From Nostoc sp. FACHB-280 (GTDB lineage: Bacteria > Cyanobacteriota > Cyanobacteriia > Cyanobacteriales > Nostocaceae), in assembly GCF_014697615.1 (NCBI RefSeq), contig NZ_JACJSD010000020.1:62001-126000 (forward strand): a stretch of DNA of 64,000 nt. The letters run 5' to 3'. The first letter of the stretch is position 1. Each line of letters begins with the position of its first letter. Below, piece after piece: positions 12,587 to 29,065 of this stretch. The notes below the pieces were generated by a model. That model worked only from the letters and a program-made list of their open reading frames with translations, ran no database searches and was not told the DNA's origin. Made by a program: the position numbers and the translations under genes.

Positions 12587-12973
12587 CTAGGACAAAGCTT
12601 TCGCTAACGCTTCTCCAAGTTGTTTGAGGGCTTTTTCTTTGGCAAAATCGGCGGCGGAACGTGCTGACTCTGCAAGGATTGTATCAGTGTTGGGAGTTAA
12701 CTTTAATGCTCCACCGAGATACCCAAGAGACTTGACATAATAATCAGACAAGTTGGTAGAAGCTAAACGTTTCACCGTTTGGTGATCACCACTTTGAAAA
12801 GCGGCTAAAGCTTGGCGATGTAATTCGGTTTCGGGAGTTCCTAAGACTTCCAGGATAGCGTTAACGGCTTGGTTGACTTTTTCTAAGGTGAGTTCCGATG
12901 ACACAGCTTGTATTATTGCGATGTTTTTAACTACATATAGCAGGATACAGATCAGAGGTGACAGTTTAATCAC
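12587..12973 (-). CDS. Small protein with N-terminal hydrophobic segment
   Basis: The 128-residue frame starts at GTG inside the end of the preceding gene (8-base overlap, GTGATTAA), which implies translational coupling. Residues 4-23 are hydrophobic and could be a signal peptide or membrane anchor. The rest is alanine-rich and helical, with TLEKVNQAVNAILEVLGTP and SARSAADFAKEKALKQLG as amphipathic helices. No family recognised. It is the last gene of the leftward lipid/redox cluster. Confidence 0.55.
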   Translation of the reverse strand: MIKLSPLICILLYVVKNIAIIQAVSSELTLEKVNQAVNAILEVLGTPETELHRQALAAFQSGDHQTVKRLASTNLSDYYVKSLGYLGGALKLTPNTDTILAESARSAADFAKEKALKQLGEALAKALS

Positions 12974-14021
12974 GCCATCTTTTCACTCCAGGTATTTCTA
13001 ATACCAAATCTGCACCGTAAACATTCCCTGGGGTTTGAAATCCTGGCTTTACTTCACCTTGGATGATGTGTTTAATCACTACTACAGCAGCTAAAGCCGT
13101 AAAATCATAAGCTTCGGGGCCGATGAGTTTTGCTGTAACTTGACGACCAGATTCATCTTCTGCAATACCAACAACGCCAACTTTACCTTGAGCGCGTTCT
13201 GCTGCACTTGGCCCTTGTGGTAATTGTTTAATTAAATTCGCTAAGGCGCTTTGGAAAAGAGATGAATTAAATAACCAGCCTAAATACTGACTGCTTTCCA
13301 TCAAAAAACTTACCGGGTTGGGAAAGACTGTGTAAGTTTCAATATTGGGAATATTGGTACTGTGGAATGCGGTAACAAGATCAGCACGCCAAGGGTTAGT
13401 TACGGCGGTGACTAAACCCGCACCAAAATCAACTTGACGTTTTTTCTCGGCTGGTCGAGATGGAATTAGTTTGCCTGCTTTGCGGACGAAACCCATTTCA
13501 TGTAAGCTGGGCAGAACCGTATTAGCAGTTCCTTGAGAAACACCGCCTTCAGTTTCATAGATTAAGGTGAGACTGTTGGCGGTTGGTAACTGAGATTTGA
13601 GGTAAACAGCCAGACAATCTGTCGGGACGACACCAAACCCAACACCAGGAAGCAGCATAATTCCTGCATTTGTCGCTTCATCATTTCGTGCTGCTAAAGC
13701 CTGAAATTCGGGAACTTCGCCAGCGATATCTAAATAATGGGTGTGAGTTTGCAAACAGACATCAACCAGTGATTTAGCAGTTTTCGCAAACGGCCCGGCA
13801 CAATTGAGAACAACTGTAACATCTTGCAGAGATTGTGCGATCGCCTGTGCATCGTCCAAACTAAACACCCGAAAATCAAAGTTTAATTTCTCCGCAACTG
13901 ATACCAACGCACCTTGATTTCTACCAGCCAAAATTAACTCTACACCCTGACTTTTTGCAGTTTCCGCTATTAGTTTCCCCGCATAGCCAGTTGCACCATA
14001 CAATAACACCTTTGCAGTCAT
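12966..14021 (-). CDS. Saccharopine-dehydrogenase-like / trans-acting enoyl reductase-like oxidoreductase
   Basis: The N-terminus is a Rossmann nucleotide-binding fold: LLYGATGYAGKLIAE, then ILAGRNQGALVSVAEKL and VLNCAGPFAKTAKSLVDVC, which are typical of the saccharopine dehydrogenase NADP-binding domain. The central HYLDIAGEVPEF and PGVGFGVVPTDCLA segments are shared with the mycobacterial-type trans-acting enoyl reductases and related membrane-associated reductases. The ATG at 14021 is preferred over the TTG at 14033. Length is about 351. It probably uses NADPH to reduce a lipid-like or polyketide-like substrate. In the cluster it lies between the ABM monooxygenase gene and a small overlapping gene. 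Confidence 0.8.
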   Translation of the reverse strand: MTAKVLLYGATGYAGKLIAETAKSQGVELILAGRNQGALVSVAEKLNFDFRVFSLDDAQAIAQSLQDVTVVLNCAGPFAKTAKSLVDVCLQTHTHYLDIAGEVPEFQALAARNDEATNAGIMLLPGVGFGVVPTDCLAVYLKSQLPTANSLTLIYETEGGVSQGTANTVLPSLHEMGFVRKAGKLIPSRPAEKKRQVDFGAGLVTAVTNPWRADLVTAFHSTNIPNIETYTVFPNPVSFLMESSQYLGWLFNSSLFQSALANLIKQLPQGPSAAERAQGKVGVVGIAEDESGRQVTAKLIGPEAYDFTALAAVVVIKHIIQGEVKPGFQTPGNVYGADLVLEIPGVKRWRD

Positions 14022-14080
14022 TGTTTTTCCCAAATTAAATCTTCATAACTCCCCCTTAGCCATAACTCATAAACATTTCA

Positions 14081-14111
14081 ATCCCCCTTTTTAAGGGGAA
14101 GCAGGGGGGAT
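14081..14111 (-). terminator. Hairpin between ABM and reductase genes
   Basis: ATCCCCC pairs with GGGGGAT around an inner CCCCTT...AAGGGG stem. Lying 17 bases past the ABM gene stop, it may terminate or attenuate the cluster transcript; the same sequence type also occurs as a dispersed repeat in Nostoc. Confidence 0.5.
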
Positions 14112-14127
14112 CTAAACTTAACTTGAC

Positions 14128-14433
14128 TTAATTATTCACAATTTGCTGCCATAACTTAACTTCTGGTGGTTCTATTAAAAACTCTTCTGATTTAGTAAGC
14201 ATTGCCCGAATATAAGGCTGTTGTAAATGTTGTTCTAAAACTGCTTGATTAGCCCAATTTTCATGCAGCAAAAACACAGAATGGTCTTCTATAGATTGAT
14301 GTAAATCATAATTAATACAGCCATCTTCCGCACGAGTGAGCGCAATTACAGGTTCAAATTCTTCTCTAAACCTATCTTCTAAACCCTGTTTGACTTTTAA
14401 CCGAGCTGTGACCGTGACTTGTTGACTTGACAT
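14128..14433 (-). CDS. ABM-domain (antibiotic biosynthesis monooxygenase-like) protein
   Basis: The 101-residue protein is a single ferredoxin-like alpha/beta ABM domain of the YgiN type. Typical segments are VTVTARLKVKQGLEDRF, the 'EDGCINYDLHQS' strand, VFLLHENWANQAVLEQHL and the final helix. These enzymes are dimers and act on quinols or other aromatic substrates without cofactors. A ribosome site AGGAGAA precedes the ATG. It lies 84 bases downstream of the lipoxygenase gene. A role in handling an oxidised product is possible, but substrate cannot be told from sequence. Confidence 0.85.
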   Translation of the reverse strand: MSSQQVTVTARLKVKQGLEDRFREEFEPVIALTRAEDGCINYDLHQSIEDHSVFLLHENWANQAVLEQHLQQPYIRAMLTKSEEFLIEPPEVKLWQQIVNN

Positions 14434-14516
14434 GATAGATTCTCCTGTTTAAATTAGATAAAAGTAGAGAGTTGGAATAATTAAATTTTTACTATTCCCT
14501 ACTCCCCACTTCCTTG

Positions 14517-16157
14517 TTAAGTATTGATACTGTTAATAATTTGGGAAGGTTTAAGGAAATTATAAGGTATAGGACGAGTTTGATTTCTAATCTCAATTTG
14601 TCGTTCTATATCATGCAAATTCTGTTGGAACTGCACAACTAATTCTTGTCCCAATGGGTCAGCAAATTCCTCATCATAATAACCCAATTTATCGTGGTGG
14701 TACGATGTTAAAATATGCGTCCACATCACTTGGTCAGCAGCTTGCTTAAATGGAGGCAATATCTTCATAATTGTTTGCATATCCACACCCTTACTTTCAG
14801 GAGTGGGATGATAAGCTGCATAAGGCATATTCGGCACAAAAGCCATATATTCGTACTGGGAAAAATTTAAAGCAGAATGGAAAGGAGCGCAGGTAAAAAC
14901 TACCACCGTAATAATTTGAATTAATTGGTCGATAGTTGCAATTTTTTCTGGCATTCCTTTAACACGTCCACCATCTTGAGCAACTAATTCTCTTGCCCAA
15001 TTTTGCAATTCATAATCTTCGCTTAAATCTTGGGTTGTCTTGTAATAAAGTTGCAAATAATCTGTGACAAATTTATGAATGGCATTCCAAATCAACATCC
15101 CATCATCCCGGAAGGGAAAATGCGGTAATATATCTGGGTCATCCATATTTTGACTTTTCATCAATGTCGGGAAGACAAATTTATCAACACTCCATTCTTG
15201 GTAAGTTTTGACGACAAAAGTTAAAGATTCTTCTAAAGAACCAGCCATAAATTCATCGACTGGGCCACCTGGTTGTAAAAAATGAGTGCGTCCCAAATCG
15301 TTATCAAATAACATGAACCGGAAATGTGGTTTTAGTAGTAAAGCAATGGGATGATTAGGAGCTAATTGGCGTGCTGTGGCGATACAAAAAGGAGCCATAA
15401 CAGCATGAGTATAAGCAAAATGGCTACCTAATTCTTGATGGTTGCCGTCGGCTATCTGCACAGAAGTCTTTGCTAAAAACCAGTCTAGATAAGGGTCATC
15501 GGGAGTGTAAATCAATCCATCTGTACCAGCATCATTATTTAATTTAATCGCTACTGGACGGAGAGAACCACCATTTGCTACACCATTGCTCTGCCAGTAA
15601 AATAAAGCTTGAGGCTTAGGTAAATACTTTCTCACATTTTGAGAAGTTCCACCTTTAATATCAAAGAGTGTGGGATAATCTAATAAATAAAGTTTACCTT
15701 CTTTGAGAGCTGCTTCTAAGTTACTTTCTGTCCCGACAGATTTTTGAAAATGGGCGTTTGTGATGCCGAGATTTTCTGGTAAACTATCAATTCTGCGAAT
15801 TGCTAAAGGGTTAGCACCTGATAATCTTTGCTCTGCGAAACATGAATCGGTTTTATAATTGTTCATCACTGCTGGTTTAGGTAGCAGTGTCAACAGTTCT
15901 TCGTATTCTTCTAATTCATCTAAAGGATCAAGGAAATTTCTGGCTTTGGCAGCTAACATATTTGGTGCTAGATTTGCCATACTAGCGAGGCGTTTAGCTG
16001 TATATTCTGCCGAGAATAGTTCTTGATGGGGAACTTTATCAATAACAGGAATAGGAGCTAAATAATCATGATTAAATTTATAATCTTCTCGATTTTTTAC
16101 TAGCTCATCTTTACGAATATTTGGGTTAGGGTCTACCTGGGGTAAGTATGGTTTCAT
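14517..16157 (-). CDS. Lipoxygenase family protein
   Basis: Lipoxygenases insert O2 into polyunsaturated fatty acids. This 546-residue protein has only the catalytic domain, without a PLAT domain, as in other cyanobacterial forms. The iron-site helix is seen as NHQELGSHFAYTH (239-251) and the later helix has FHSALNFSQYEY, with the His and Asn four residues apart as in the canonical H-A-A-V-N. Two features are unusual. The usual second-helix pair H-x4-H would need a histidine at residue 241, where Q stands; H240 and H246 are six apart. The C-terminus ends in NSINT instead of the usual NSISI, so the iron-binding carboxylate would come from Thr. The gene sits in the middle of the redox cluster beside an alpha/beta hydrolase. 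Confidence 0.85.
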   Translation of the reverse strand: MKPYLPQVDPNPNIRKDELVKNREDYKFNHDYLAPIPVIDKVPHQELFSAEYTAKRLASMANLAPNMLAAKARNFLDPLDELEEYEELLTLLPKPAVMNNYKTDSCFAEQRLSGANPLAIRRIDSLPENLGITNAHFQKSVGTESNLEAALKEGKLYLLDYPTLFDIKGGTSQNVRKYLPKPQALFYWQSNGVANGGSLRPVAIKLNNDAGTDGLIYTPDDPYLDWFLAKTSVQIADGNHQELGSHFAYTHAVMAPFCIATARQLAPNHPIALLLKPHFRFMLFDNDLGRTHFLQPGGPVDEFMAGSLEESLTFVVKTYQEWSVDKFVFPTLMKSQNMDDPDILPHFPFRDDGMLIWNAIHKFVTDYLQLYYKTTQDLSEDYELQNWARELVAQDGGRVKGMPEKIATIDQLIQIITVVVFTCAPFHSALNFSQYEYMAFVPNMPYAAYHPTPESKGVDMQTIMKILPPFKQAADQVMWTHILTSYHHDKLGYYDEEFADPLGQELVVQFQQNLHDIERQIEIRNQTRPIPYNFLKPSQIINSINT

Positions 16158-16180
16158 GATAGTTGTTAAGGAGGAAAGAG

Positions 16181-16207
16181 AGACAAGGGGGACAAGGGAG
16201 ATAAGGG
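16181..16207. repeat. GGGACAAG-type purine-rich tandem repeat
   Basis: Units AGACAAGGGG, GACAAGGGAG and ATAAGGGA in tandem. Same family as 27650-27712 and 28298-28322, and the complement of 7228-7265. Confidence 0.7.
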
Positions 16208-16266
16208 ATAGAGATGTTATGTTTTGCTGGGCTTTGCCCAGCTAATGAATAATGACGAATTATTAT

Positions 16267-17241
16267 TTAGACTTGGAGAGGTCGAGAAACTAAACCAGAT
16301 GTGGGAGTTTCTTGTTGGACAACATTAATGATTTCTTGAATTACTTTGTTATTGCGCCAGTAGCTACCATGTGCGTCGCCACCAGAAAGTAAGGGTAAAA
16401 GTGTTTGTGCAAGTGGTATTTCTAACCATCCAGCGTTGTGTGTGAGAATTTCTTGAATATCTAAGTATTTAGTATCGCCATCCACTAAATCTGTCATGAG
16501 TTCTTTGAGTGGATAAGCGATTGGATCACCAGGATGAAGGTAATTGCGCCAAGGTAGTTTTTTGCCTTTGCGTACTTCTTGCAGACACTCTAATAATGTT
16601 TGGAGATTAGGTGTAATGTCGTGGGTACTGGGTGAATTTGCGTCATCTTTACCTGGGTTGACATTGGTCAAACTAAAGATGGCTAAGGGTGAACCAAGGG
16701 TATGAATACTCGCAATGGGAATACCTTGACGAAGAAGCTCGCTATTGTTCCCAGCTACACCAAAAATGCTATCGCGGATTTCCATAACATCGTTGTGGCC
16801 GGGTACTCGCGGATCATCCCAACGACTAGCAAACAAGATGTCAAACAAAATCACTGTTCCCCAACTGTGGCTGACTATGTGCAGACGATCATCAGTTTGA
16901 GCTTTGTCTAACCCGTTAGCGATCGCTTGAGTTTTTAGTCGGTTGACAACTTTTGCACCAACATGACGGCTAATATAAAGTGCAGCATCACCAGCAAATT
17001 GGATAATTTGCTGTTCCCGAAATCCTCTAAACCACATATCATCCCAATAGGATGAGCGTCTCAGTTGTCCCAACAAATTACTTTCTGCTGGTTTATTCAC
17101 ATCACCCCAATAAAGAGCGATTGGTTTGAGATTCCGTTGGCGATCGCCTACACTTTTTTCTAGGCGTTCAAACATCTCACGGGCGTAGTTTTCGTTACGG
17201 GTATTCACGCCATGAATAAACAACACATAGTCTGTAGCCAT
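16267..17241 (-). CDS. Alpha/beta hydrolase (lipase/esterase-like)
   Basis: The 324-residue protein begins with the oxyanion strand YVLFIHGVNT. The nucleophile elbow is SHSWGT with S126, and HTLGSPLAIF follows as the next core strand. A histidine in GGDAHGSYW (about 294) is the likely catalytic base and ends the fold in the right place. No signal peptide is seen, so it is probably cytoplasmic. Its position directly upstream of the lipoxygenase gene in the same transcript suggests it could release fatty acids for that enzyme. Substrate is inferred only from context. Confidence 0.8.
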   Translation of the reverse strand: MATDYVLFIHGVNTRNENYAREMFERLEKSVGDRQRNLKPIALYWGDVNKPAESNLLGQLRRSSYWDDMWFRGFREQQIIQFAGDAALYISRHVGAKVVNRLKTQAIANGLDKAQTDDRLHIVSHSWGTVILFDILFASRWDDPRVPGHNDVMEIRDSIFGVAGNNSELLRQGIPIASIHTLGSPLAIFSLTNVNPGKDDANSPSTHDITPNLQTLLECLQEVRKGKKLPWRNYLHPGDPIAYPLKELMTDLVDGDTKYLDIQEILTHNAGWLEIPLAQTLLPLLSGGDAHGSYWRNNKVIQEIINVVQQETPTSGLVSRPLQV

Positions 17242-17292
17242 TTCAACACCCCTTTTCTGTAAGTTTTATCGAAACGACGATGCTGCTTAGGT

Positions 17293-18726
17293 CTATAAGG
17301 TTTTTAAGTACTCAATCAGTGCTTTTTTATCGTCACTGGGCAAATCAGTACCATAAAGATGTCCCTGATTAGAATTGGCAGCAACGGTCGTATCATATTT
17401 AAAACCTACACGTTTAGCTTCTGCTCCTTCGGAAATAAAGCCAACTCTTTGCGAATCGTAAACATCGTAGCCCCGATAAAAGGTTTTGGGACGACTCTCT
17501 GGTTTTGCTAACAAATCTTGCAGAGATGGAACGGAACCGTTATGTAAATATGGCGCTCTAATCCACAATCCATCCAGAGACACCGCCACATAGCCATCAG
17601 TTTTCCGTAATTGGCTAAAATCCCAAGGATAGCCATCACCAAAGTGATTGTAGGTGTCTGCGGCTTGCTGAGTCCACATATCTAAACGATGGCGGTCTGT
17701 TCCCACTTCTTCTACAGGAATGACTGTACCTGTTCTTTCACCACCAAAGGCGTGACAAGATGCACAGTTGTTAGCAAAAATTTGACTTCCTGTATTAGCT
17801 AATTTCTTATCTATAGGGAAAGGATATTCAGGTGGCGCAAGTGTAGTGATATAGTCTTCTACTCGTTGCAAATCAGCAACAGGTAAAGAATCTTTAGTTG
17901 CACCATCGCCAATTGCACCTGTTTGCACAGTTTCTTTGAGAGAAGTTTCTAAACCATCCCAATGTAAGGCAAATCCCTTGTGTAGTTTCTGATTCCAAAT
18001 TGGCATCATATCGGAGTTACCGATAGTGTCATCTTTGGGCAGTTTTAAGGTGTTGAATTTCACCGGGTTAAACGGATCAATTCGACCAGGCCCCCAGTTG
18101 GGACGAGAATCCATCCAAGCAAAATCGGCACTTTGTTGTAACAAGGCTTTTTTAGTTTGGGGAATAATCAAAAACCGATAAAGTAAGTTTTCGATCCAAG
18201 AAAACTCATGATTATATTTGATTTCATCCAAAATATAATCGGCGGTAAATCTGGGGTCACTGGCGGCTGCACCCAAAAAGCGCACATAAGCTTGAGAATT
18301 GAATTTGTTAGAAGGCCCAGCCGGGAAAATATGGGGTTTTTCTAGGGGACTGGTTCTATAGGTAGCAGTATGGCAGACTGCACAAGTAATTCCCACACGA
18401 GGAAAACCAATGGTTTTTTTCGTAAAACCAACAGGGGTTTCTTTGCCTTCTTCCCAAGTAATTCCTAAAGAAGTGTAACCGCCTGGCCCTGGTAATTTAT
18501 CAGGAAAGATGCGGGGTAAAACTAACCAAATCCAATAAGGTATACCTTGGGCTGGTTCTGTACCAATAGAACCATATTTAAAATGTTCTTCTGGTGATTC
18601 GTAGGTAAGCGGCACATCCCGAAACAAATGATACCAAGCTATGTAACCTACGCCCCCGACTAACAACACAAAAACTAAAGCAATGCTGGCGAGAATTCTG
18701 CCTAATTTCTCTTTAAATATTTTCAT
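17293..18726 (-). CDS. Membrane-anchored diheme c-type cytochrome
   Basis: The 477-residue protein has an N-terminal membrane anchor (about residues 11-32) and two haem c sites: CAVCH (115-119) and CASCH (321-325). Between them is WGPGRIDPFNP, a conserved stretch shared with its paralogue at 19264-20736. The C-terminal half resembles the MauG/diheme peroxidase superfamily, with RAPYLHNGSVPSL and the final helical cytochrome c segment. It should face the periplasm or thylakoid lumen and either carry electrons or activate peroxide or O2. A ribosome site AAGGAG precedes ATG. It lies 27 bases after the four-helix membrane protein gene. Confidence 0.85.
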   Translation of the reverse strand: MKIFKEKLGRILASIALVFVLLVGGVGYIAWYHLFRDVPLTYESPEEHFKYGSIGTEPAQGIPYWIWLVLPRIFPDKLPGPGGYTSLGITWEEGKETPVGFTKKTIGFPRVGITCAVCHTATYRTSPLEKPHIFPAGPSNKFNSQAYVRFLGAAASDPRFTADYILDEIKYNHEFSWIENLLYRFLIIPQTKKALLQQSADFAWMDSRPNWGPGRIDPFNPVKFNTLKLPKDDTIGNSDMMPIWNQKLHKGFALHWDGLETSLKETVQTGAIGDGATKDSLPVADLQRVEDYITTLAPPEYPFPIDKKLANTGSQIFANNCASCHAFGGERTGTVIPVEEVGTDRHRLDMWTQQAADTYNHFGDGYPWDFSQLRKTDGYVAVSLDGLWIRAPYLHNGSVPSLQDLLAKPESRPKTFYRGYDVYDSQRVGFISEGAEAKRVGFKYDTTVAANSNQGHLYGTDLPSDDKKALIEYLKTL

Positions 18727-18752
18727 AAAGTTACATTGCTCCTTGGTAGAAA

Positions 18753-19184
18753 TTAGGAGAATTGTTTGGCTGGTTCTTTGGCGATCGCCTCAGCATTTTC
18801 ACTCCGCGTCGCTAGAGTTAAGAAAATTGCTTCTACTACACCAAAAAATAAGTCTACAAAGGCAATCGATAAAAAGCCTTTATCTTGCCCAAAAAAGAAC
18901 ACTGCACAAATAAAAAATGTCGAACCAAAGGCTCTAGAGGGAAATATTGATATCCAAGCCGTTGCCCGATAGCGATTAGGATCAATTGCACCTGGAATGT
19001 AAAATGCACTAATGATAAATAACAGCATTCCCGCCGTTCTTACCCAGATAATTGGGTCTGGTTGGTGCATCTTTAAAAACCACAACATTAACTCTGGAAA
19101 GAAGCATGAGGGAATCACAAACAACATATTTACAATAATTCCCAACCAAGTTACACGGCTAAACCACTTTGCATATGTATTCAT
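18753..19184 (-). CDS. Four-helix integral membrane protein
   Basis: The 143-residue protein has four hydrophobic segments, the first about 11-31 (VTWLGIIVNMLFVIPSCFF), the last around 108-128 (FVDLFFGVVEAIFLTLA). Motifs include PDPIIWVRTAGMLLF and a polar loop with DPNRYRATAWIS. It has no haem or cysteine motif. It lies between two diheme cytochrome genes, with gaps of 27 and 79 bases, which suggests it partners them in the membrane. No family name can be given with certainty. Confidence 0.75.
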   Translation of the reverse strand: MNTYAKWFSRVTWLGIIVNMLFVIPSCFFPELMLWFLKMHQPDPIIWVRTAGMLLFIISAFYIPGAIDPNRYRATAWISIFPSRAFGSTFFICAVFFFGQDKGFLSIAFVDLFFGVVEAIFLTLATRSENAEAIAKEPAKQFS

Positions 19185-19263
19185 GATTAGTTCCTAATTT
19201 ACAGTATAAAAAATCTCCTCCACCAGCATTATTTTCTGCATAACTCCTGAATTATTTCTAAGA

Positions 19264-20736
19264 TTACAGTTGCTTCATGTACTCAACCAACGCATCTTTT
19301 TCTGCTGGAGAGAGTTCAGTTCCATATACATGGCCGCTGTTGCTGTTTCCAGGTTTGGTCGTATCAAATTTAAAATATTGCTTGCCGTTCTCTTCAGCAA
19401 TAGTTGATACAAACCCAACTTTTTCCCGATCAATTACGTCGTAACCCCGATAAAATTCTTTGGGTCGATTTTCTGGTTTTTCTAGCAAATCTCGTAATGT
19501 GGGGACTGAACCATTATGTAAATAAGGGCCGCGTAACCAAATACCATCTAGAGGTGAATTAGCATAGCCATTCGTTTTGCGGAAATTATTAAACCGCCAA
19601 TCATACCCAGCGTATAAAGTATTTTGGTTAGATAAAGTTTCGTAGGTAAAAGAATTTAGGCGATGGGGGTCTGTACCAATTTCTTGAATGGGTACTACTT
19701 TACCTACATATTTTCCGCCAAAGGCATGGCAACTAGCACAATTATTGGCAAACAGTTGTTTTCCGGTAGCGGCTAAAGTTTGGTTAACTGGATAGGGATA
19801 TTCGGGTGCTGGTAATGTCAACAGCCAATCAGCAACTCGTTTAATTCTATCTAAATCAATTGTGGTAGGTGTAACTCCCGCACCTAAAGCAGCACTTTTA
19901 TTACGTTCATCAACAGAACTGTTATTCCCATCCCAGTGTAATTCCATGCCTTTGCGCTGTTCTTGATTCCAAATGGAAGGGAAATCCGATGTGCCGATTA
20001 ATTCATCCTCACGCAATTTATCCATTGGGAAATGAAACTGAATTGCTTTATAAGGATTGAATGTATCGACTCTACCCGGCCCCCACTTTGGTTGATCATC
20101 AATAAATTTCAGTCGGCTTCTTTGATTAATTAGTGCGTCGCGGGTTTGGGGAATGGCAATAAACCGATAAACTAGTTTTTCTATTGGGTTCAAACCGCCA
20201 CTAATTTTTTCAATTTCTGGCAGCATCCGGTTGGCAGTAAAGCGCGAATCGATCGCCACATCTGATAAGAATTTAATATATCCCTGCAAGTTGACGACAT
20301 TAGCAGGCATAGTGGTAATGATTTGGCGATCGCTATTTGGTGTATCACGTATTGTCCCGGTATGACACACCGCACAATTCAAGCCAACACGGTTAATAAA
20401 CACCCGTCGTTGCGAAAACCCAATGGGTAAGTCTTTTCCCTCTTCTTGAATAAATCCCAAGGAAGTATAACCTTTATCGGGCAATTTATCAGGAAATAAT
20501 TCTGGCAGAACTTTCCATATCCAGTAGGGAACTCCATTGACTGCCTCACTACCAATGGAACCATACTTAAAATGCTCTTGGATATCAGCATAATCAACTG
20601 GGGAGTTAGATATAACAGGCCAAATTAAAAATACAACTACTGCTACAACTCCCACAATTGCAGCCACAATCCACTTAACAACCGCCTTTGTTCCCTTAAC
20701 AACGGTGGGAACTAGCGTAGGGCTTGTTTGAGTCAT
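19264..20736 (-). CDS. Membrane-anchored diheme c-type cytochrome, paralogue
   Basis: The 490-residue protein is a clear paralogue of the product of 17293-18726. It has an N-terminal membrane anchor (about 21-42), haem motifs CAVCH (121-125) and CASCH (333-337), the shared YWIWKVLPELFPDKLP and WGPGRVDTFNP segments, and LRGPYLHNGSVPTLRDLL near the end. The order anchor, haem 1, haem 2 is the same. The two genes probably arose by tandem duplication, now separated by the membrane protein gene. Likely a periplasmic or luminal redox partner or peroxidase-like enzyme. Confidence 0.85.
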   Translation of the reverse strand: MTQTSPTLVPTVVKGTKAVVKWIVAAIVGVVAVVVFLIWPVISNSPVDYADIQEHFKYGSIGSEAVNGVPYWIWKVLPELFPDKLPDKGYTSLGFIQEEGKDLPIGFSQRRVFINRVGLNCAVCHTGTIRDTPNSDRQIITTMPANVVNLQGYIKFLSDVAIDSRFTANRMLPEIEKISGGLNPIEKLVYRFIAIPQTRDALINQRSRLKFIDDQPKWGPGRVDTFNPYKAIQFHFPMDKLREDELIGTSDFPSIWNQEQRKGMELHWDGNNSSVDERNKSAALGAGVTPTTIDLDRIKRVADWLLTLPAPEYPYPVNQTLAATGKQLFANNCASCHAFGGKYVGKVVPIQEIGTDPHRLNSFTYETLSNQNTLYAGYDWRFNNFRKTNGYANSPLDGIWLRGPYLHNGSVPTLRDLLEKPENRPKEFYRGYDVIDREKVGFVSTIAEENGKQYFKFDTTKPGNSNSGHVYGTELSPAEKDALVEYMKQL

Positions 20737-20753
20737 GACGGTATTACTCTCTG

Positions 20754-20961
20754 GTTAATAGTCAAGAGTCAATGGTCATTTGTCATTTGTCATTAGTAAA
20801 TTAATGTTGTGTGCAAATTTCTCTAAAACCTAACCCCCAACCCCTTCCCTACAAAGGAAGGGGAGAAAGAATCAAAGCCTCTCTCTGTTGTGGGGAGAGA
20901 TTTGGAGAAGGGTGTAAAAATAAATTGCACACCTCATTAAATCTGAATGACAAATGACAAA
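20754..20961. repeat. Composite Nostoc-type intergenic repeat
   Basis: Heptads (AGTCAAG, AGTCAAT, GGTCATT, TGTCATT) at 20758-20800 and their complement (ATGACAA) at 20946-20961 flank a palindromic unit containing CTAACCCCCAACCCCTTCCC, AAGGAAGGGG and TTTGGAGAAGGGTG. No gene is present. This unit resembles repeats widespread in Nostocales. Confidence 0.7.
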
Positions 20962-22380
20962 TTAAATATGTAATGCTGGAACTTCTGCGTTATGTTTTGC
21001 CGACTCATCACTATGAAAGACTGACATGACTTCTTTGATCATCGCATCATAGTTATTATCAAAGCGACTGAGTTCATAACAACCCAAGGGATTTTCAATG
21101 ACATTGAGTAGACATTTATTGCAGTAAGTACATGGTCTATCGGGTAAGTCTTTACCTTGTTGCAGTTGTTTTGCTAAATCGTTATTAGCAATCAACTGTC
21201 GAGCAATTGTTACGCCGTCACAATAGCCTTCTTCAATGGCTTTGCGAATAAATGAACCTTGTTGAAAACCGCCAGTACACAAAACTGGAATATTAACAGC
21301 TTGTTTAATTGCTTGGGATGAAAGTAAGTTTCTACCTTGGTTTTCTGCTAATAGTTTTCTCATTGCATCATCGGCAACATAATCACCACTAAATGCTGGC
21401 GGTGGGAGTTGTCTTTTCACCCGATTCCACAAGAATTTAAAAATGGGACGTAGCAGTTTATATCGGAATAAGATGTAGTTGCGAATTGTTTGGTTCCCAC
21501 TGGAAAGCATTGTGTCATAGGTTTTGGTGATGACATTAAAATTAAAATCACCAATGGGGTTAAGTGGATGAGGAAATAAACTACCTACAGACACATGAAC
21601 AGCATCAGCACCGGCTGCTTCTGCCCATTTACAAATTTGTACAGATTCTTCTAAAGTATTGCCGGGTTTTTCACAAGGAATTACAGCATCGTTATAATCA
21701 ATAGCACTAATTTTAAATTGCAGATGAAAATCATTACCAACTTCTTGCCGAATCGCCCGAATTACATCTAGTAAAAACCGCGCCCGATTTTCGAGTGAAC
21801 CACCATATTCGTCGTTGCGATCGTTAATTCCTGAACTAAGAAATTGGTTAAATAAATAACCATTAGCACTGTGTAATTCTACACCGTCTAACCCAGCTAA
21901 ACGCGCCCGTCTTGCGCCATCAGCAAACATTTGGATGGTTTCTTTAATTTCTTTCAAGGTCATTGCTTGGCAGCGCAAGCCGTGAAATGATTCAGTACGA
22001 CTAGTAGAACTTAATCCTTTTAAACCATCGTTTTCTACACCACCAATGTCTTGTTGTCGTCCAGAATGGCTTAGTTGCAAAATAAATTTACAGTCGTATT
22101 CATGGACTTTTTCACCTACTTTGCGCCAAAAAGGAATCCTATCATCGCAGTGAATTGTGGCGTAGTTGGGCATAATTCTGCCGCGAATTGTTACGGGTAC
22201 AAATGAAGTAATAATCGCGCCAACCCCACCACGAGCAAATTTTTCTTCCCAGTTAATTCTGGCTTGAGTACCTGAACCATCGTAGTTATCCCACCTACCA
22301 GATATACTGGAGCGAAAAATCCTGTTTTTGACAGTGAGATTACGAAATTCTAAAGGCTTAAAGATAATATCGTTCTCCAT
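20962..22380 (-). CDS. Old yellow enzyme family NADH:flavin oxidoreductase
   Basis: The ATG at 22380 is chosen because AGGAGAG lies just upstream and the next residues (ENDIIFKPLEFRNLTVKNRIF) are the usual start of the family; the open frame extends further upstream without homology. The FMN barrel shows LQLSHSGRQ, LDGVELHSANGYLFNQFLS and DGVTIARQLIAN. Near the end PCTYCNKCLLN and a later cysteine suggest an iron-sulfur site as in 2,4-dienoyl-CoA reductase-type members, though it lacks the large C-terminal half of those. It would reduce activated C=C bonds. In plants a member of this family (OPR) reduces the lipoxygenase-derived oxylipin OPDA. It is the first gene of the leftward cluster. Confidence 0.85.
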   Translation of the reverse strand: MENDIIFKPLEFRNLTVKNRIFRSSISGRWDNYDGSGTQARINWEEKFARGGVGAIITSFVPVTIRGRIMPNYATIHCDDRIPFWRKVGEKVHEYDCKFILQLSHSGRQQDIGGVENDGLKGLSSTSRTESFHGLRCQAMTLKEIKETIQMFADGARRARLAGLDGVELHSANGYLFNQFLSSGINDRNDEYGGSLENRARFLLDVIRAIRQEVGNDFHLQFKISAIDYNDAVIPCEKPGNTLEESVQICKWAEAAGADAVHVSVGSLFPHPLNPIGDFNFNVITKTYDTMLSSGNQTIRNYILFRYKLLRPIFKFLWNRVKRQLPPPAFSGDYVADDAMRKLLAENQGRNLLSSQAIKQAVNIPVLCTGGFQQGSFIRKAIEEGYCDGVTIARQLIANNDLAKQLQQGKDLPDRPCTYCNKCLLNVIENPLGCYELSRFDNNYDAMIKEVMSVFHSDESAKHNAEVPALHI

Positions 22381-22873
22381 ACTCTCCTGCCTGTTTGTAT
22401 TAGAATCAAGTATTAAAATTATTACTGTGTAAACAAAAACTACCCAGATAACTACCATTGATAGATACTCTGGGGGTTCGATTGGAATACTTACAAGTTC
22501 AAGACTGAGTTTTTCGGATGTGAGGTCAAAGATTAAGTTTTTGTTACTTAGTTTGCTGCCTCAATATTCAACCAAAGCTTTACCAGTTCAAGGTTGAACC
22601 ATGAAATGAGAATTTTTTGTAATTGAGTGAAACTAGCATCCTCAACAAATCAAATCTTAAGAAATCATTTCTTTGATATCAAGGTTAACGCAAAATTAAT
22701 ACAGGCTGCTGCACACAATTTGTTACAAAATTAACCTAGTGTAAAATGTCGCTTATACGATAACAAATGATATTGATGATGCCAGGATAAATTTACAATT
22801 TTTTAAATAAATCAGTTGACAAAAGAGCGGTTTTTTTAGTGACGTTTGGCTAAATTGTGTAGTAACTTCGTAT
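22381..22873. other. Divergent promoter region of the redox/lipid cluster
   Basis: Non-coding AT-rich sequence between the leftward reductase gene and the rightward small frame and RoxA-like gene. It should hold promoters for both arms. No operator of a known regulator was recognised. Confidence 0.4.
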
Positions 22874-22993
22874 ATGACCGTGCCTAAAATTATGGTGCCA
22901 GATTATTTATTTGCCATTCGCCAAAAATATCTGAAGGATAGATCAGGAAAATGGCAAATTCATGGTGAAGCTTTGCTATTAAGATCCACCTAA
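22874..22993 (+). CDS. Possible 39-residue small protein or leader peptide
   Basis: A short frame with ATG and TAA lies 31 bases before the ATG of the RoxA-like gene. The product would be basic, with PDYLFAIRQKYLKDRSGKWQ in the middle. There is no clear ribosome site. It could be a leader peptide, a small protein or chance. Confidence 0.25.
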   Translation: MTVPKIMVPDYLFAIRQKYLKDRSGKWQIHGEALLLRST

Positions 22994-23024
22994 TTAGGTT
23001 TAGGTGTTACTCATAGAGAGTTAT

Positions 23025-25025
23025 ATGAATAAAATACGCCTACTGTGGAAGGGCTGTTTGGTGGTTGGCGCTGCGATCGCAATTATAATTTGCGGTTGGT
23101 ACAGCACCCCAACAGCTTTAGCTGGTGAGTATGGTGAAACACCTGCTCCCATCTCCAAAGAGTATAATGATGCGGGTTATGCTGATAACTGCGATGGTAT
23201 CGGATATCTCCCGCCATATACTAAAGAAAATCTCACCGACGCTGAAAAAAGAGGCCGTTGTACTTGGTACTTATGGACTGGTGGTAATGGTGAATACTAT
23301 CGGGACATTGCCAAGCGCACTCACGGCAATGTTGACTTACTCCAGCTAATTGACTCGAAGTACCATGATGAGCGTTTAAAACTCTTTGGTGCAATCAACG
23401 ACCCCGGATGTGAAAAAGCCACAGAACCAGATGAATATGGGTTGTTGTTGGATAAGTGTAAAGACCCTCTGTCTACTGGTGTGATTGGGTTACGTAAGTT
23501 TCCCAACCCCAAATTTGACAGATCAAAATGGAATGCTGAGAAATACGTCAAGGATGTATCAATTGAGCCTCCATATTTGATTGGACAGTCTTGCGCTATT
23601 TGTCATGTTGCTTTAGACCCACTCAACCCACCCAAAGACAAAGAACACCCCCAATGGGAAAATCTCGTTCCAGCTTTGGGTAATCAGTACATTAAGGAAG
23701 CTAAATTATTTTCGCTCAAACTTAGGGATGATAGTTTCATCAAACAAGTCTTGATGGCACAACGTCCCGGCACATCTGACACCTCAAGAATTGCTACAGA
23801 TCATATTAATAATCCAAATGCGATAAATGCCATTTTTAATTTAGGCGATCGCCCCACATATCCGGAAGTGATGAACGATGGTTCTACCAAAAACGTTAAT
23901 CACATTCTCAAAGATGGTGCAGACTCCACAGGTGTAGCTACAGCTTCTTTGCGTGTGTACGTCAACATTGGGATGTGTGGTGACTATTGGCTAAAACTGC
24001 ACGAAGCTATGTTAGGTCGAACTCCCCAACGTCCTTTTGATATTGAAACCGCCAGAAAGAATTGCGAAGGCTGGAGACAAACAGAAGCACGTATGGCTGA
24101 TGCAGAAGCATTCCTCAAAACTATCAAACCGATGCACCTCAAAGATGCACCCGGTGGTGATGCTTTCTTAACCAAAGATGAAAAGGTTCTCGAACGTGGC
24201 AAGATAGTTTTTGCTGATACCTGTGCATCTTGTCACTCTAGTAAAAAGCCACCTGCTGAAATTGCAGCTGACCCCCAACAAGCGAAGAAGTGGTACGAAG
24301 AATCAGTACTCAGTAGCAATTTCCTTGACCATAACTTCTTATCTGATGACCAACGCTACCCAGTCACACTACTTGGTACTAACATTTCCCGTGCTTTAGG
24401 AACCAACGCAACTAAAGGCCATATTTGGGATCAGTTCTCTTCCAAAACTTATAAAGAACTACCTTCTCCTGGTCAATTAACGCTGTATAATCCCTTCAAC
24501 GAAGCCAAACCAATCAATTTCCAAATACCAGAAGGCGGCTTAGGATATTACCGCACACCTTCACTCATTAGTATTTGGGCAACAGCACCATTTCTCCATA
24601 ACAACACTTTAGGTTTATATAACGAAGATCCTTCTGTGCAAGGTAGGATAACAGCCTATAACGATGCGATGGAAAAACTGCTGTGGCCAGAAAAACGGGA
24701 AAACATTATCAGCAGAACTGACCGCAAAAGTAAATTAGATTTACCCCCAGGAGATCCAAATCCGAGATTGCGTTTACCTGTACCTAAAGGTATGCCTGTA
24801 AACTTGTTGGCAAACGTCAATATGAGAGAAGCAATTACTTCTCTTAATTTGGGTAACTTATTCCAAGACTTAAGACCAGAAGGTGGCATCAAAGGTAAAC
24901 TCGCCCGCGTATTATTGAGAGCGAATAAATCTCCTGACTTCATTGAAGATAGAGGTCATACTTTTGGTTCTGATTTGTCTGATGAAGACAAAAAAGCACT
25001 CATCGAGTTTGTGAAGACTTTCTAA
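23025..25025 (+). CDS. RoxA-like secreted diheme cytochrome c oxygenase
   Basis: The ATG at 23025 is chosen because a standard signal peptide follows (LLWKGCLVVGAAIAIIICG, cleavage after TALA). Length is 666 residues. Haem motifs are CAICH (190-194) and CASCH (400-404). The bacterial rubber oxygenase RoxA has the same plan, about 680 residues with one haem near 190 and one near 390 as I recall it. Shared-looking segments include ASLRVYVNIGMCGDYW (308-323) and MHLKDAP followed by RGKIVFADTCASCHSSKKP. RoxA and LatA cleave C=C bonds of polyisoprene with O2. The protein should be exported to the periplasm or outside. It begins the rightward arm opposite the lipoxygenase arm. Other diheme-peroxidase functions are possible. 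Confidence 0.7.
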   Translation: MNKIRLLWKGCLVVGAAIAIIICGWYSTPTALAGEYGETPAPISKEYNDAGYADNCDGIGYLPPYTKENLTDAEKRGRCTWYLWTGGNGEYYRDIAKRTHGNVDLLQLIDSKYHDERLKLFGAINDPGCEKATEPDEYGLLLDKCKDPLSTGVIGLRKFPNPKFDRSKWNAEKYVKDVSIEPPYLIGQSCAICHVALDPLNPPKDKEHPQWENLVPALGNQYIKEAKLFSLKLRDDSFIKQVLMAQRPGTSDTSRIATDHINNPNAINAIFNLGDRPTYPEVMNDGSTKNVNHILKDGADSTGVATASLRVYVNIGMCGDYWLKLHEAMLGRTPQRPFDIETARKNCEGWRQTEARMADAEAFLKTIKPMHLKDAPGGDAFLTKDEKVLERGKIVFADTCASCHSSKKPPAEIAADPQQAKKWYEESVLSSNFLDHNFLSDDQRYPVTLLGTNISRALGTNATKGHIWDQFSSKTYKELPSPGQLTLYNPFNEAKPINFQIPEGGLGYYRTPSLISIWATAPFLHNNTLGLYNEDPSVQGRITAYNDAMEKLLWPEKRENIISRTDRKSKLDLPPGDPNPRLRLPVPKGMPVNLLANVNMREAITSLNLGNLFQDLRPEGGIKGKLARVLLRANKSPDFIEDRGHTFGSDLSDEDKKALIEFVKTF

Positions 25026-25167
25026 GCAACTCGTCAGAATGCTTGGCATTTCACTAGTCGTTCCTAAGTTATACTTGGGAACGATAAATATTTGGAATAA
25101 GAGTCAAGAACAATGATTCTTATATAAATAAATAACCAATAAAAAATAATAAATATGGAGGCGATAA

Positions 25168-26577
25168 ATGCAATATTTACCAATTATTTATGTACGCGGC
25201 TATGCAGGTACAGATAAAGATGTTGACCAAACGGTGAATGATCCATTTTATGGATTTAATAGTGGTTCAACTCATATTCGGGTGGGAGAAAAAGGTACTC
25301 CGGAAAAGTTCTTTTTTGAGAGTCCCTTGTTACGTTTAATGACTGACCACGGCTATCGTCCTGTGTTTGATAATAAGCAGTTGAGCAGTAATATCAAAAC
25401 TATTTGGATTTATCGATTTTATGATATGACTTCACCGAGTTTTGGTGAGGAAAAAACCATCAGGCTAGAAATGGAGGAAATTGCTGAGGGTTTACGAGAT
25501 TTAATTAATGTCGTGAAAAAGGAAAGTGGTGCAAACAAAGTTTATTTAATTGCTCATTCAATGGGTGGACTGGTCTGTCGGAGTTTGATTCAAAAAATTT
25601 ATCCAGATCATGGTGAAAAAGCTGAAGACCATATTGATAAATTATTTACCTATGGTACACCGCATGGGGGAATTTATTTTCAAGTTGGCGGCGGTTTAAT
25701 TGAAGGTATCAGAGATACTTTGAAATGGAATAACTCTGATGATTTTGGCCCGCAAAGAATGTATGAATATTTCACTCCCAAAGTGAAGTTAGTGCCAGAA
25801 TTACCCCAAGATTTTGATACTCAAAGTCTGGATAATGCTTTTTCGCCAGACAGGGTTTTTTGTATTATTGGTACAAATGCGCGTGATTATGAAAATGCTG
25901 CTGGCTTTTCACAAAAGGCTGTAGGGCCGCAGAGTGATGGGTTAGTGCAGATAGATAAAGCTTATGTCAGAGGAGCGCATCGCGCTTATATTCATCGGAC
26001 TCATGGCGGCCGCTATGGAATGGTAAATTCTGAGGAAGCTTATCAAAATCTGCAAAGATTTTTATTTGGTGATATCAAGGTAAAGCTGTCTCTAAGTAAT
26101 GTAGAATTAAGCGATCGCCAAAATACTTTTTATCAAATGGAAGTTCGGGTGGCTTTGCGTGGTCTTCCTACTCCCATACACGAACAAGCCATTGACCGTT
26201 ATTGTCCCATCACGGTGGAATTAATGCGGGATAAGCCTGTACCTTTGTTTACAGCTTTCTTAATTCCCCGTTATGCAGTGAACGCCGATAGTACTTGTAG
26301 ATATGCAATTCGTTTGGCGCTGCATTCTTTTACAAAAAAAGAAAGAGATTGGTTGTTTGATAGCCACATTGACCAGCTACCTTTGTGGTCTGATTATTTA
26401 ATTGTGGATGTTATAGCTGAAGATAATATATACAAGGCGAAATATTGTTGGAACTCTGAAAGTTTAGAGCCGAATATTGATTTAAGTTTAGGTGCTGATA
26501 TTCTCTTACCCCAACGTGGTCGAGATGTTGTTGGTGCGAAATCAGCTATCAAGTTAGAAATTTCGCAATGGCAATAA
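25168..26577 (+). CDS. Lipase-like alpha/beta hydrolase
   Basis: The 469-residue protein starts with LPIIYVRGYAG, a variant of the HG oxyanion strand of class-2/PGAP1-type lipases. The nucleophile elbow is AHSMGG with S131 (VYLIAHSMGGLVCRSL). YGTPHGG follows. The acid is probably in GPQSDGLVQ and the base in IHRTHGGRYGM. The C-terminal ~160 residues form an extra beta-rich domain without an obvious match (VKLSLSNVELSDRQ onwards). AGGCG precedes ATG. It follows the RoxA-like gene by 142 bases and may supply lipid substrate. No signal peptide is visible. Confidence 0.8.
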   Translation: MQYLPIIYVRGYAGTDKDVDQTVNDPFYGFNSGSTHIRVGEKGTPEKFFFESPLLRLMTDHGYRPVFDNKQLSSNIKTIWIYRFYDMTSPSFGEEKTIRLEMEEIAEGLRDLINVVKKESGANKVYLIAHSMGGLVCRSLIQKIYPDHGEKAEDHIDKLFTYGTPHGGIYFQVGGGLIEGIRDTLKWNNSDDFGPQRMYEYFTPKVKLVPELPQDFDTQSLDNAFSPDRVFCIIGTNARDYENAAGFSQKAVGPQSDGLVQIDKAYVRGAHRAYIHRTHGGRYGMVNSEEAYQNLQRFLFGDIKVKLSLSNVELSDRQNTFYQMEVRVALRGLPTPIHEQAIDRYCPITVELMRDKPVPLFTAFLIPRYAVNADSTCRYAIRLALHSFTKKERDWLFDSHIDQLPLWSDYLIVDVIAEDNIYKAKYCWNSESLEPNIDLSLGADILLPQRGRDVVGAKSAIKLEISQWQ

Positions 26578-26599
26578 TTGTAGCGTTTAGGTACAAAGT

Positions 26600-26750
26600 T
26601 TGTCTGTTAAGAATGAGTGTAAGGGTTTAGAGGCTAAGGGTGTAAAGGTTTGGAAGACCTACACTCTTACAGGGAAATCAAAAAATTTTTGAATTTTGAC
26701 TTGATTTTACCCATTCACCCTCTCTTAAACCCTTAATTTTAGAGGTACAC
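26600..26750. repeat. GTGTAAGG-type inverted repeat region
   Basis: Contains GAGTGTAAGGGTTTAGAGG, AGGGTGTAAAGG and the complement CCTACACTCTTACAG. Similar units occur at 42672-42755, 46590-46690 and 50008-50060. Confidence 0.6.
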
Positions 26751-26857
26751 GAAGAGGAGAGGTGTTAGGAAACATGATTGATGTGGCTGTAGTCAATTGT
26801 CAGAGTAATTAATAACCAAACTATTTTTGTTTGCTAGATTCTAACTAAGGTAAAGTT

Positions 26858-27649
26858 ATGCAAAGCGATCGCAGAAAAACTGCCCTAATTACTGGTGCAT
26901 CTGGTGGGATTGGTTATGAGTTTGTGAAGTTATTTGCTCAAGATAAATACAATTTGGTATTAGTTGCCAGAAGTGAGCAGAAACTCCATCAAATTGCTGC
27001 TGAATTAAGAACTAACTTTAGGATTGAGGTCAAAGTTATTGCTAAAGATTTGGCGAATCCTACTGCGCCAGAAGAAATTTTTGCTGAGTTACAACAAGCA
27101 TCAATTAAGGTTGATATTCTGATTAACAATGCGGGATTTGCCAGCTATGGTTTGTTTAACGAAACAGATTTAACTGCGGAATTACAAATGTTGCAAGTTA
27201 ATGTGATGTGTCTGACTCATTTAACCAAGCTGTTCCTCAAAGATATGGTGAAGCAAGGTTATGGCAAAATTTTGAACTTGGCTTCAACTGCGGCTTTTCA
27301 ACCAGGCCCTTTAATGGCGGTTTATTATGCCAGTAAGGCTTATGTATTATCATTTTCAGAAGCGATCGCTAATGAATTAGAAGGTACAGGTGTATCTGTA
27401 ACTGCACTTTGTCCAGGGCCGACAGAATCAGGTTTTCAAAAACGCGCCGCAATGGAAGACTCCAAACTTGTCAGTGGTCAAAAAATTATGGATGCAGAAA
27501 CTGTGGCTAAAATCGGCTATGATGCCTTATTTGATAACAAAACCGTAGTTGTTCCTGGCTTGAAAAATAAACTCCTTTCTGAAAGTGTGAGATTTACACC
27601 CAGAAAGCTTGTGACCAAAATTGTCAGAAGTATGCAAGAAAGTAAATAA
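26858..27649 (+). CDS. Short-chain dehydrogenase/reductase
   Basis: A classical SDR of 263 residues. It has the NAD(P)-binding TGASGGIG motif near residue 14, the NNAG motif, a serine in LNLASTAAF and the catalytic YASK. After the active site CPGPTESGF is typical. The basic tail (RFTPRKLVTKIVRSMQESK) suggests membrane association, as seen in subfamily members acting on lipids or sterols. It is the third gene of the rightward arm, 280 bases after the lipase across a repeat, so co-regulation is less certain. Substrate unknown. Confidence 0.88.
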   Translation: MQSDRRKTALITGASGGIGYEFVKLFAQDKYNLVLVARSEQKLHQIAAELRTNFRIEVKVIAKDLANPTAPEEIFAELQQASIKVDILINNAGFASYGLFNETDLTAELQMLQVNVMCLTHLTKLFLKDMVKQGYGKILNLASTAAFQPGPLMAVYYASKAYVLSFSEAIANELEGTGVSVTALCPGPTESGFQKRAAMEDSKLVSGQKIMDAETVAKIGYDALFDNKTVVVPGLKNKLLSESVRFTPRKLVTKIVRSMQESK

Positions 27650-28603: not shown

Positions 28604-29065
28604 CTATTGCTTCGCTCCCATTTCTAATACAACACTACGCATAAAATCGATGCGCTTCTCCAAATCTAATCGTTCAACATTTTCTACAAAGTCATTTGTT
28701 TCTTCAGGTAGTTCATAATCAGAAGGTACAGTAATAATCTGATTACTTTCCATACCTTGCGCTAGGCGTAACCACAATTCTAATTTGCCACTAGAATGCA
28801 AGGCGGTATAAGCACGGCTAATATCACTGTTCGTACAGCCAGCAATATCACGTTGCGCTTGTAATTGCTGTTCTCTTGGCAAAGCCAGAATTTGGTCATA
28901 CACTGCATTAGCTGTATCTACTTCAGCAGCTACGTTTCCCGAAGGAAGTATTTCATCTTTGATATCAAGATAGCCAAACCACAGTAAAGCTAATTGAGTA
29001 TCAACATCAAATTGGCGAAATTGTTCTACAGCTTGTCTGGTGCTTTCGTCGGTTGCGTAAGTCAT
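28604..29065 (-). CDS. Helical carotenoid protein (OCP N-terminal domain homologue)
   Basis: The 153-residue protein corresponds to the all-helical N-terminal domain of the orange carotenoid protein, without the C-terminal NTF2-like domain. Signature parts are TQLALLWFGYLDI, LPREQQLQAQRDIAG and SRAYTALHSSGKLELWLRL, ending IDFMRSVVLEMG. Aromatic residues that line the carotenoid in OCP are matched by W29, Y32 and W98, while the Tyr next to the last Trp is replaced by Leu. HCPs bind a ketocarotenoid and, depending on clade, quench phycobilisome excitation or singlet oxygen. It lies about 4 kb from the phycobilisome rod genes. Which HCP clade it belongs to is not certain. Confidence 0.85.
   Translation of the reverse strand: MTYATDESTRQAVEQFRQFDVDTQLALLWFGYLDIKDEILPSGNVAAEVDTANAVYDQILALPREQQLQAQRDIAGCTNSDISRAYTALHSSGKLELWLRLAQGMESNQIITVPSDYELPEETNDFVENVERLDLEKRIDFMRSVVLEMGAKQ

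Follow-up and report, generated by a model that had tools for sequence, protein, structure and literature searches.

The locus described here lies in a window of 64,000 nucleotides from Nostoc sp. FACHB-280 (positions 62001–126000 of contig NZ_JACJSD010000020.1, within a 7.64-Mb Nostoc-type genome), and consists of two divergent arms. Reading outward from the gap between them, the minus arm encodes an ene-reductase-type enzyme (OYE), a di-heme cytochrome c (cytB), a small membrane protein (memb), a second di-heme cytochrome c (cytA), a hydrolase-like protein (abhA), a lipoxygenase (LOX), an ABM-domain protein (ABM) and a Sacchrp_dh_NADP reductase (SacDH), whilst the plus arm encodes a third di-heme protein (rox), a further hydrolase (abhB) and a short-chain dehydrogenase (SDR) (Table 1). 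These arms contain every gene named in a preliminary description of the window, and the reading frames, together with family assignments from Pfam and NCBIfam, bear out its gene content, tight spacing and divergent arrangement, with intergenic gaps of 26–225 bp from SacDH through OYE and a divergent gap of 545 bp, or ~620 bp if OYE begins at its inner start. Comparison with related loci shows that the genes form one conserved unit, belonging to a system that extends beyond what the preliminary description saw and that most likely oxidises fatty acids. We give a probability of roughly 0.6 to the reading that these genes make up a modular system for fatty-acid oxygenation (oxylipin formation).

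Table 1. Features of the divergent locus (positions within the window).
Feature	Position	Strand	Description
SacDH	12966..14033	-	Sacchrp_dh_NADP reductase, 355 aa; accessory, accompanies the LOX arm
ABM-domain protein	14128..14433	-	101 aa, ABM 71.6 bits; accessory, accompanies the LOX arm
LOX	14517..16157	-	Mini-lipoxygenase, Lipoxygenase 209 bits
abhA	16267..17241	-	Alpha/beta hydrolase-like, 324 aa; SHSWG serine motif by eye
cytA	17293..18726	-	Di-heme cytochrome c, core; CAVCH115, CASCH321, PYLHNG392; N-terminal anchor by eye
memb	18753..19184	-	Helical membrane protein, 143 aa, core; AF2 pLDDT 94.8
cytB	19264..20736	-	Di-heme cytochrome c, core; CAVCH121, CASCH333, PYLHNG404; N-terminal anchor by eye
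OYE	20962..22458	-	Ene-reductase-type FMN enzyme, core; Oxidored_FMN 220 bits; 472 aa from the inner start at 22380
Conserved block	22839..22885		47 bp within the divergent gap; candidate promoter/operator
rox	23004..25025	+	Di-heme protein, 673 aa; CAICH197, CASCH407, PFLHNN529; N-terminal signal-like helix
abhB	25168..26577	+	PGAP1-like lipase/hydrolase, AHSMGG
SDR	26858..27649	+	Short-chain dehydrogenase

LOX-like genes are frequent in the family, being found in 146 of the 192 genomes sampled; the LOX of this cluster is found in 16, the window's own genome included, and all 16 carry the cytochrome core. Forty loci around LOX-like genes were compared, 15 with a LOX of at least 70% identity (ortholog loci, numbered L031–L045 in our set) and 25 with a less similar one. 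The genes cytA, memb and cytB adjoin LOX in all 15 ortholog loci (LOX is cut in L044, and the cytA of L041 is split into two pieces). Fourteen loci also have OYE and rox, the exception (L045) being a contig end, and SDR is likewise present in 14. Each of abhB, SacDH and ABM is found in 13: abhB seems truly absent from L044, SacDH misses L042 and L044 at contig ends, and for ABM the L044 miss is a contig end, whilst L042 gives no match over ~880 bp past LOX, where the gene may be truly absent. The hydrolase-like abhA, which matches no Pfam family at E 0.01, is present in 10 of the 15. The 25 loci whose LOX is less similar contain no further gene of the cluster; apart from LOX, only a Carot_N gene (in L061) and a Uma2 gene (in L068) gave matches there. 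For core genes beside LOX, the comparison of 15/15 with 0/25 gives a Fisher p of 2.5e-11, kinship being ignored. As to co-occurrence in related genomes, which the preliminary description had put forward as a check, the genes do stay together. It had also counted the 128-aa open reading frame at 12587–12973 as a member of the cluster; this frame, like memb, has no Pfam match, and it has a tblastn match in only one of the 15 ortholog loci (L032), so that the conserved cluster begins at 12966.

A place for LOX at the heart of the pathway is not supported; LOX is an accessory of the cluster, and the core stands without it in further genomes. Thirty of the 192 family genomes have the core (the cytA/cytB profile matches 33, three of them remote, at E about 1e-58 to 1e-63), and 14 genomes beyond those with the cluster LOX keep the core without an intact LOX. 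Among these 14, five lack LOX and possess abhA; in six, memb is shifted behind cytA, with a GMC oxidoreductase following in four of the six; and two have an alpha-dioxygenase-like gene. In the remaining one (G026), the last 61 codons of LOX and part of SacDH are all that is found beside an intact core, so that the LOX arm was apparently lost. Across the class as a whole, 13 of 388 sampled genomes have the cytochromes at E 1e-40.

In a tree of 31 LOX sequences, hand-picked for spread and length, the cluster LOXs (14 of the 31 rows) form a single clade with 100/100 support. The enzyme matches PF00305, and His246, His251, His427 and Asn431, assigned by motif, are presumably its iron ligands. LOX normally ends in Ile; this usual C-terminal ligand is absent from the cluster LOX, which ends in Thr546, although the terminal carboxylate itself can still bind the iron. 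All 14 full-length cluster LOXs of the ortholog loci end in Thr, as do LOXs of L104, L108 and L139 outside the window's family, and none of the 24 readable LOXs outside the cluster does so (that of L061 is broken). Neither the LOX of a Pseudomonas aeruginosa plasmid record nor that of an Acaryochloris plasmid has a cluster around it.

The deeper unit is OYE–cytB–memb–cytA, usually with rox. When named genomes were scanned with the cytochrome profile, 143 relatives came up, and the 78 best loci were taken further; core loci number 94, and 90 are counted after the removal of four near-duplicates. Presence in these loci was scored by tblastn (E 1e-8, 30% cover) with queries from few lineages, so that distant copies can escape, and some contigs end within the cluster. 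Among these 90, whatever their length, memb is found in 63, OYE in 61, rox in 54, SDR in 32, LOX in 22, GMC in 13 and the dioxygenase in 11. The four-gene unit with rox occurs in Cyanobacteriota, in Acidobacteriota and on Rhizobium-type plasmids, and on plasmid pRL11 of Rhizobium johnstonii 3841 and a Sinorhizobium fredii plasmid it is joined by GMC and patatin. In Thiocystis and Thiocapsa, OYE is missing from a set made up of the cytochromes, memb, GMC and rox; the loci of Verrucomicrobiota and Planctomycetota have only cytA–cytB and rox; and cytA–cytB is all that two Nitrospira loci have, rox being added in a Nitrospirales locus (L176). No cytA, cytB, memb, OYE or rox is found in any of 35 control loci (25 LOX, 10 catalase-related), of which two have GMC, two SDR and one a weak dioxygenase match. 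With the order of the core maintained across families, phyla and plasmids, it is extremely improbable that these are independent units merely lying side by side, for which the two divergent arms and the variable accessory genes could be cited; independence could survive for ABM, SacDH and SDR, but probably not for the core.

The same counts bear on the parallel with plant jasmonate synthesis drawn in the preliminary description, in which LOX would feed OYE in the manner of plant OPR. LOX and OYE are indeed clustered in the window and in 14 of the 15 ortholog loci, the fifteenth being cut by a contig end. Most core loci, however, have OYE without LOX, and no allene oxide synthase or cyclase family is found among the cluster proteins, abhA and memb matching no family at all, which makes a jasmonate-like route most improbable. 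OYE itself carries the Oxidored_FMN domain and a His-x-x-Asn-x-Tyr motif (HSANGY by eye), which we take to be the functional motif of OYE. In two Acidobacteriota loci (L179 and L184), memb and cytA share one frame, with the RoxA-like domain confirmed in that of L184, which suggests that memb and cytA are in contact. The predicted fold of memb has no confident match in the PDB (best E 0.059).

Beside the cytochrome pair of Nitrospira-type and proteobacterial loci lies a family of ~790 aa (L170:7542–9938, with relatives in L169, L171, L176 and L188), the L170 member of which has no Pfam match. A family of ~591 aa in 12 loci was dropped, since its members in L158 and L165 are antisense to cytB and the rest are presumed to be alike.

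The RoxA-like label was originally attached to rox, which falls under every RoxA cut-off (PF21419, 22.2 against 26.7 bits; NF040606, 48.5 against 150 bits), whereas the other two di-heme cytochromes exceed both PF21419 (RoxA-like_Cyt-c; 54.7–56.4 bits) and NF040606 (di-heme-cytochrome C peroxidase; 177.6 bits for cytA and 201.3 bits for cytB), and by these scores the label suits cytA and cytB better. Only the C-terminal heme region of rox aligns with cytA/cytB (hhalign E 2.8e-16), and the rox profile matches RoxA (4b2n) at E 0.0006 across 27 residues.

In several cyanobacteria, the rox slot beside OYE is occupied by a heme dioxygenase and a 306-aa protein of no known family, the latter accompanying the dioxygenase in most cyanobacterial cases. 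The dioxygenase scores 390.7 bits for PF03098, its best PDB match is the fatty acid alpha-oxidase 4kvj (E 5e-121, residues 16–593 of 601), and a Y-R-x-H motif is present in 11 of 11 dioxygenase loci (the L110 gene is in two pieces, one of which carries it); on sequence, it belongs to the fatty-acid alpha-dioxygenase family. Non-duplicate loci that have OYE and extend at least 4.5 kb past it number 48; rox is present in 38 of them, the dioxygenase in seven, neither in three and both in none, and the two are found together in none of the 94 core loci. As Fisher values ignore kinship, a cytB tree offers a partial remedy; in such a tree of 46 of the 94 core loci, hand-picked for spread and length (34 with rox, nine with the dioxygenase, three with neither), the dioxygenase label needs five changes, at least four of which are forced by supported branches. 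One genome (G377) holds the cluster twice, at separate loci: with the dioxygenase in L107, and with rox, LOX and patatin in L108. The two genes thus appear to be mutually exclusive at a locus and to have been exchanged repeatedly. This exchange is the main argument for taking rox to be a fatty-acid dioxygenase in its own right, which would do the job of the enzyme that replaces it, although exclusive genes can also serve separate routes that leave from one intermediate. The alpha-dioxygenase-like gene of Moorena bouillonii has a cytochrome P450 next to it (L149:3047–6410), an arrangement that recalls the dioxygenase-P450 fusions of fungi.

The 306-aa partner finds nothing in the PDB by phmmer or profile, and nothing relevant in Pfam. 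Its identity as a catalase-related lyase was considered and is not claimed, the hhalign comparison with catalase-related proteins giving E 0.019 and a probability of 2%, with catalases at E 0.33 and unrelated controls at E 0.087–0.47.

The cytochromes cytA and cytB are 49% identical and stand in tandem around memb, each with two CxxCH motifs and a MauG-type P-Y-x-H-N-G motif. The closest PDB relative of their profile is RoxA (4b2n; E 8e-16); the match runs through three collinear stretches and owes its significance to the middle one (i-Evalue 2e-6, against 0.57 and 0.27 for the first and last). This relationship would favour isoprenoid or other alkene cleavage by RoxA-type chemistry, as the preliminary description had envisaged, as would the alignment of the inter-heme Trp302 of RoxA with a Trp, within the first stretch, which is weak alone (i-Evalue 0.57). 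In that same weak stretch, Phe317 of RoxA, which is described as essential (PMC4496055), aligns with Leu in cytB and Ile in cytA. On the NCBIfam models for RoxA, RoxB and RoxC, the pair scores 58–89 bits against cut-offs of 900–1000, and the partner genes are those of fatty-acid enzymes, so that cleavage of alkenes in the RoxA sense seems very unlikely.

The hydrolases near the core vary by lineage (PGAP1-like as in abhB, abhA, patatin, Tle1-like and DUF900), and the lipid enzymes that related loci add comprise an alpha-dioxygenase-like enzyme, patatin, Tle1-like and DUF900 hydrolases, GMC and P450. Varied lipase families at one spot, in company with LOX or an alpha-dioxygenase-like enzyme, point to fatty acyl substrates for the cluster. 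Such a gene set might also serve the clearance of lipid peroxides, with the cytochromes as quinol- or cytochrome-fed peroxidases acting on lipid hydroperoxides, and OYE, SDR and SacDH removing reactive enals and ketones. OYEs reduce enals, and cytA and cytB pass the cut-off of the NF040606 peroxidase model. The P. aeruginosa protein PA2078 has, moreover, been interpreted partly in terms of detoxification (PMC4496055). The clusters nevertheless contain generators of hydroperoxides (LOX and the alpha-dioxygenase-like enzyme) as well as hydrolases, which pure defence would not need, and the exchange of rox for a dioxygenase would likewise be needless in a purely defensive set; clearance is accordingly regarded as unlikely, if the most serious of the alternatives.

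On the favoured reading, that of fatty-acid oxygenation, a lipase (abhA or abhB here) would free an unsaturated fatty acid, which LOX and/or rox would dioxygenate. The hydroperoxide would be rearranged or reduced by cytA and cytB, as a di-heme pair held at the membrane through memb, a dehydrogenase (SDR or SacDH here, GMC elsewhere) would convert the hydroxyl to an enone, and OYE would reduce the C=C bond of the enone. Several observations weigh against this scheme. A hydrolase of the searched families is found in only 34 of the 58 loci of at least 15 kb, three of the 48 loci counted above have neither rox nor the dioxygenase, and the loci of Verrucomicrobiota, Planctomycetota and Nitrospira are without OYE or any lipid family searched. 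An alphaproteobacterial plasmid (L196) has the dioxygenase with cytB and a FAD_binding_4 protein and no OYE, and the predicted model of rox (pLDDT 78) matched no solved structure in Foldseek, RoxA included. LOX and OYE have no signal sequence and the three cytochromes look extracytoplasmic by eye, so that an intermediate must cross the membrane. LOX also requires polyunsaturated acids, which many core-bearing bacteria lack, and the substrate may therefore differ between lineages.

Of the common lipid-oxidation pathway first proposed, what stands is that the genes stay together and that related loci add lipid enzymes, whilst the centrality of LOX, the jasmonate parallel and RoxA-sense alkene cleavage find no support. 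A more specific reading, offered tentatively and at somewhat below even odds, is that of an undescribed oxylipin-type system of several phyla, whose OYE–cytB–memb–cytA core is fixed and whose front ends can be exchanged. Under this reading, rox would be a c-type di-heme fatty-acid dioxygenase of a new class, and evolution would repeatedly have put in its place a heme dioxygenase that works through a tyrosyl radical and belongs to the alpha-dioxygenase/cyclooxygenase superfamily. To our knowledge, few enzymes of bacterial oxylipins are known, and the pathways past the first oxygenation are mostly unknown. A core that soil Acidobacteriota, Rhizobium plasmids and Nostoc have in common would tell where in the genome to look for such pathways, and the replacement of rox by a dioxygenase makes a sharp and cheap prediction on the enzyme function of rox. 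Among the literature matches listed, in which subscription journals are poorly covered, the cluster is described in no title or abstract opening.

The conserved block in the divergent gap is a candidate promoter or operator; when 23 divergent gaps of the Nostoc type are aligned, its conservation is strong. A 31-base core pattern of the block has a single occurrence in the window's genome at up to three mismatches, and a conserved TTTGTTACAAA palindrome lies close to it. Immediately past the cluster, a stand-alone N-terminal orange carotenoid protein domain is encoded at 28604–29065 (Carot_N, 133 bits), followed at 29259–31829 by an 856-aa frame with a protein kinase and a periplasmic-binding-like domain (by eye). 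On the other side, 8974–11229 encodes a 751-aa protein comprising a starch-binding domain, a GDSL lipase domain and DUF1796.

Several parts of the cluster can be compared with known systems. The best PDB match of the cluster LOX is 5mef (E 7e-131), presumably CspLOX2. Like the cyanobacterial mini-LOXs CspLOX2 and NpLOX2 (Nostoc punctiforme), the cluster LOX has no PLAT domain, but differs from them in its separate clade and Thr end. The length given for CspLOX2, 569 aa, is the same as that of 5mef (PMC10177866). A clade of 547-aa LOXs ending in Val or Ile lies outside the cluster; this length is that of NpLOX2 (PMC10177866), and we infer from the length alone that the clade is NpLOX2's.

The enzyme that replaces rox is of the same family as the plant and cyanobacterial fatty-acid alpha-dioxygenases (4kvj; CalDOX/LepDOX, PMC8720084). 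A term search of the CalDOX/LepDOX paper finds no mention of a gene cluster, operon or cytochrome, whereas here the enzyme adjoins the OYE/di-heme core. A pair of a 10S-dioxygenase and a catalase-related lyase has been reported from Nostoc (Brash 2014, as cited in PMC9579011), and it resembles the replacement of rox in placing a heme dioxygenase next to a small partner protein. A pair like the Nostoc one is seen at L214:5045–7838, unlinked to the di-heme core, where a heme dioxygenase (YRWH) adjoins a catalase-related protein; over 378 residues, this dioxygenase and that of the cluster share 24% identity.

RoxA, RoxB and RoxC of the rubber-oxygenase group share their di-heme layout and RoxA-like cytochrome domain with cytA and cytB, which differ in scoring far under the family cut-offs; the function of RoxC is given as unknown (PMC10837239). 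The oleate diol synthase pair PA2078-PA2077 (FadCcp) of P. aeruginosa is, like cytA/cytB, an adjacent paralogous pair of di-heme RoxA-like proteins, and both pairs have the P-Y-x-H-N-G-S-V-P motif (PMC4496055; PMC5155153). At 477 and 490 aa, cytA and cytB are shorter than the P. aeruginosa proteins (624 and 634 aa), a comparison made by description rather than alignment, and unlike the latter they accompany a small membrane protein, OYE, a third di-heme protein and hydrolases. Equivalents of Trp302 (PA2077) and Phe317 are further features to compare with this pair (PMC4496055); in the weak first stretch of the RoxA alignment, cytA/cytB show the Trp but not the Phe. In the tandem oleate pathway, PA2077 is the 10S-dioxygenase and PA2078 the 7,10-diol synthase (PMC4496055; PMC5155153). 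Because these two have the same layout as cytA and cytB, the nearest functional model for the cytochromes of the cluster would be a pair of an oxygenase and a hydroperoxide isomerase.

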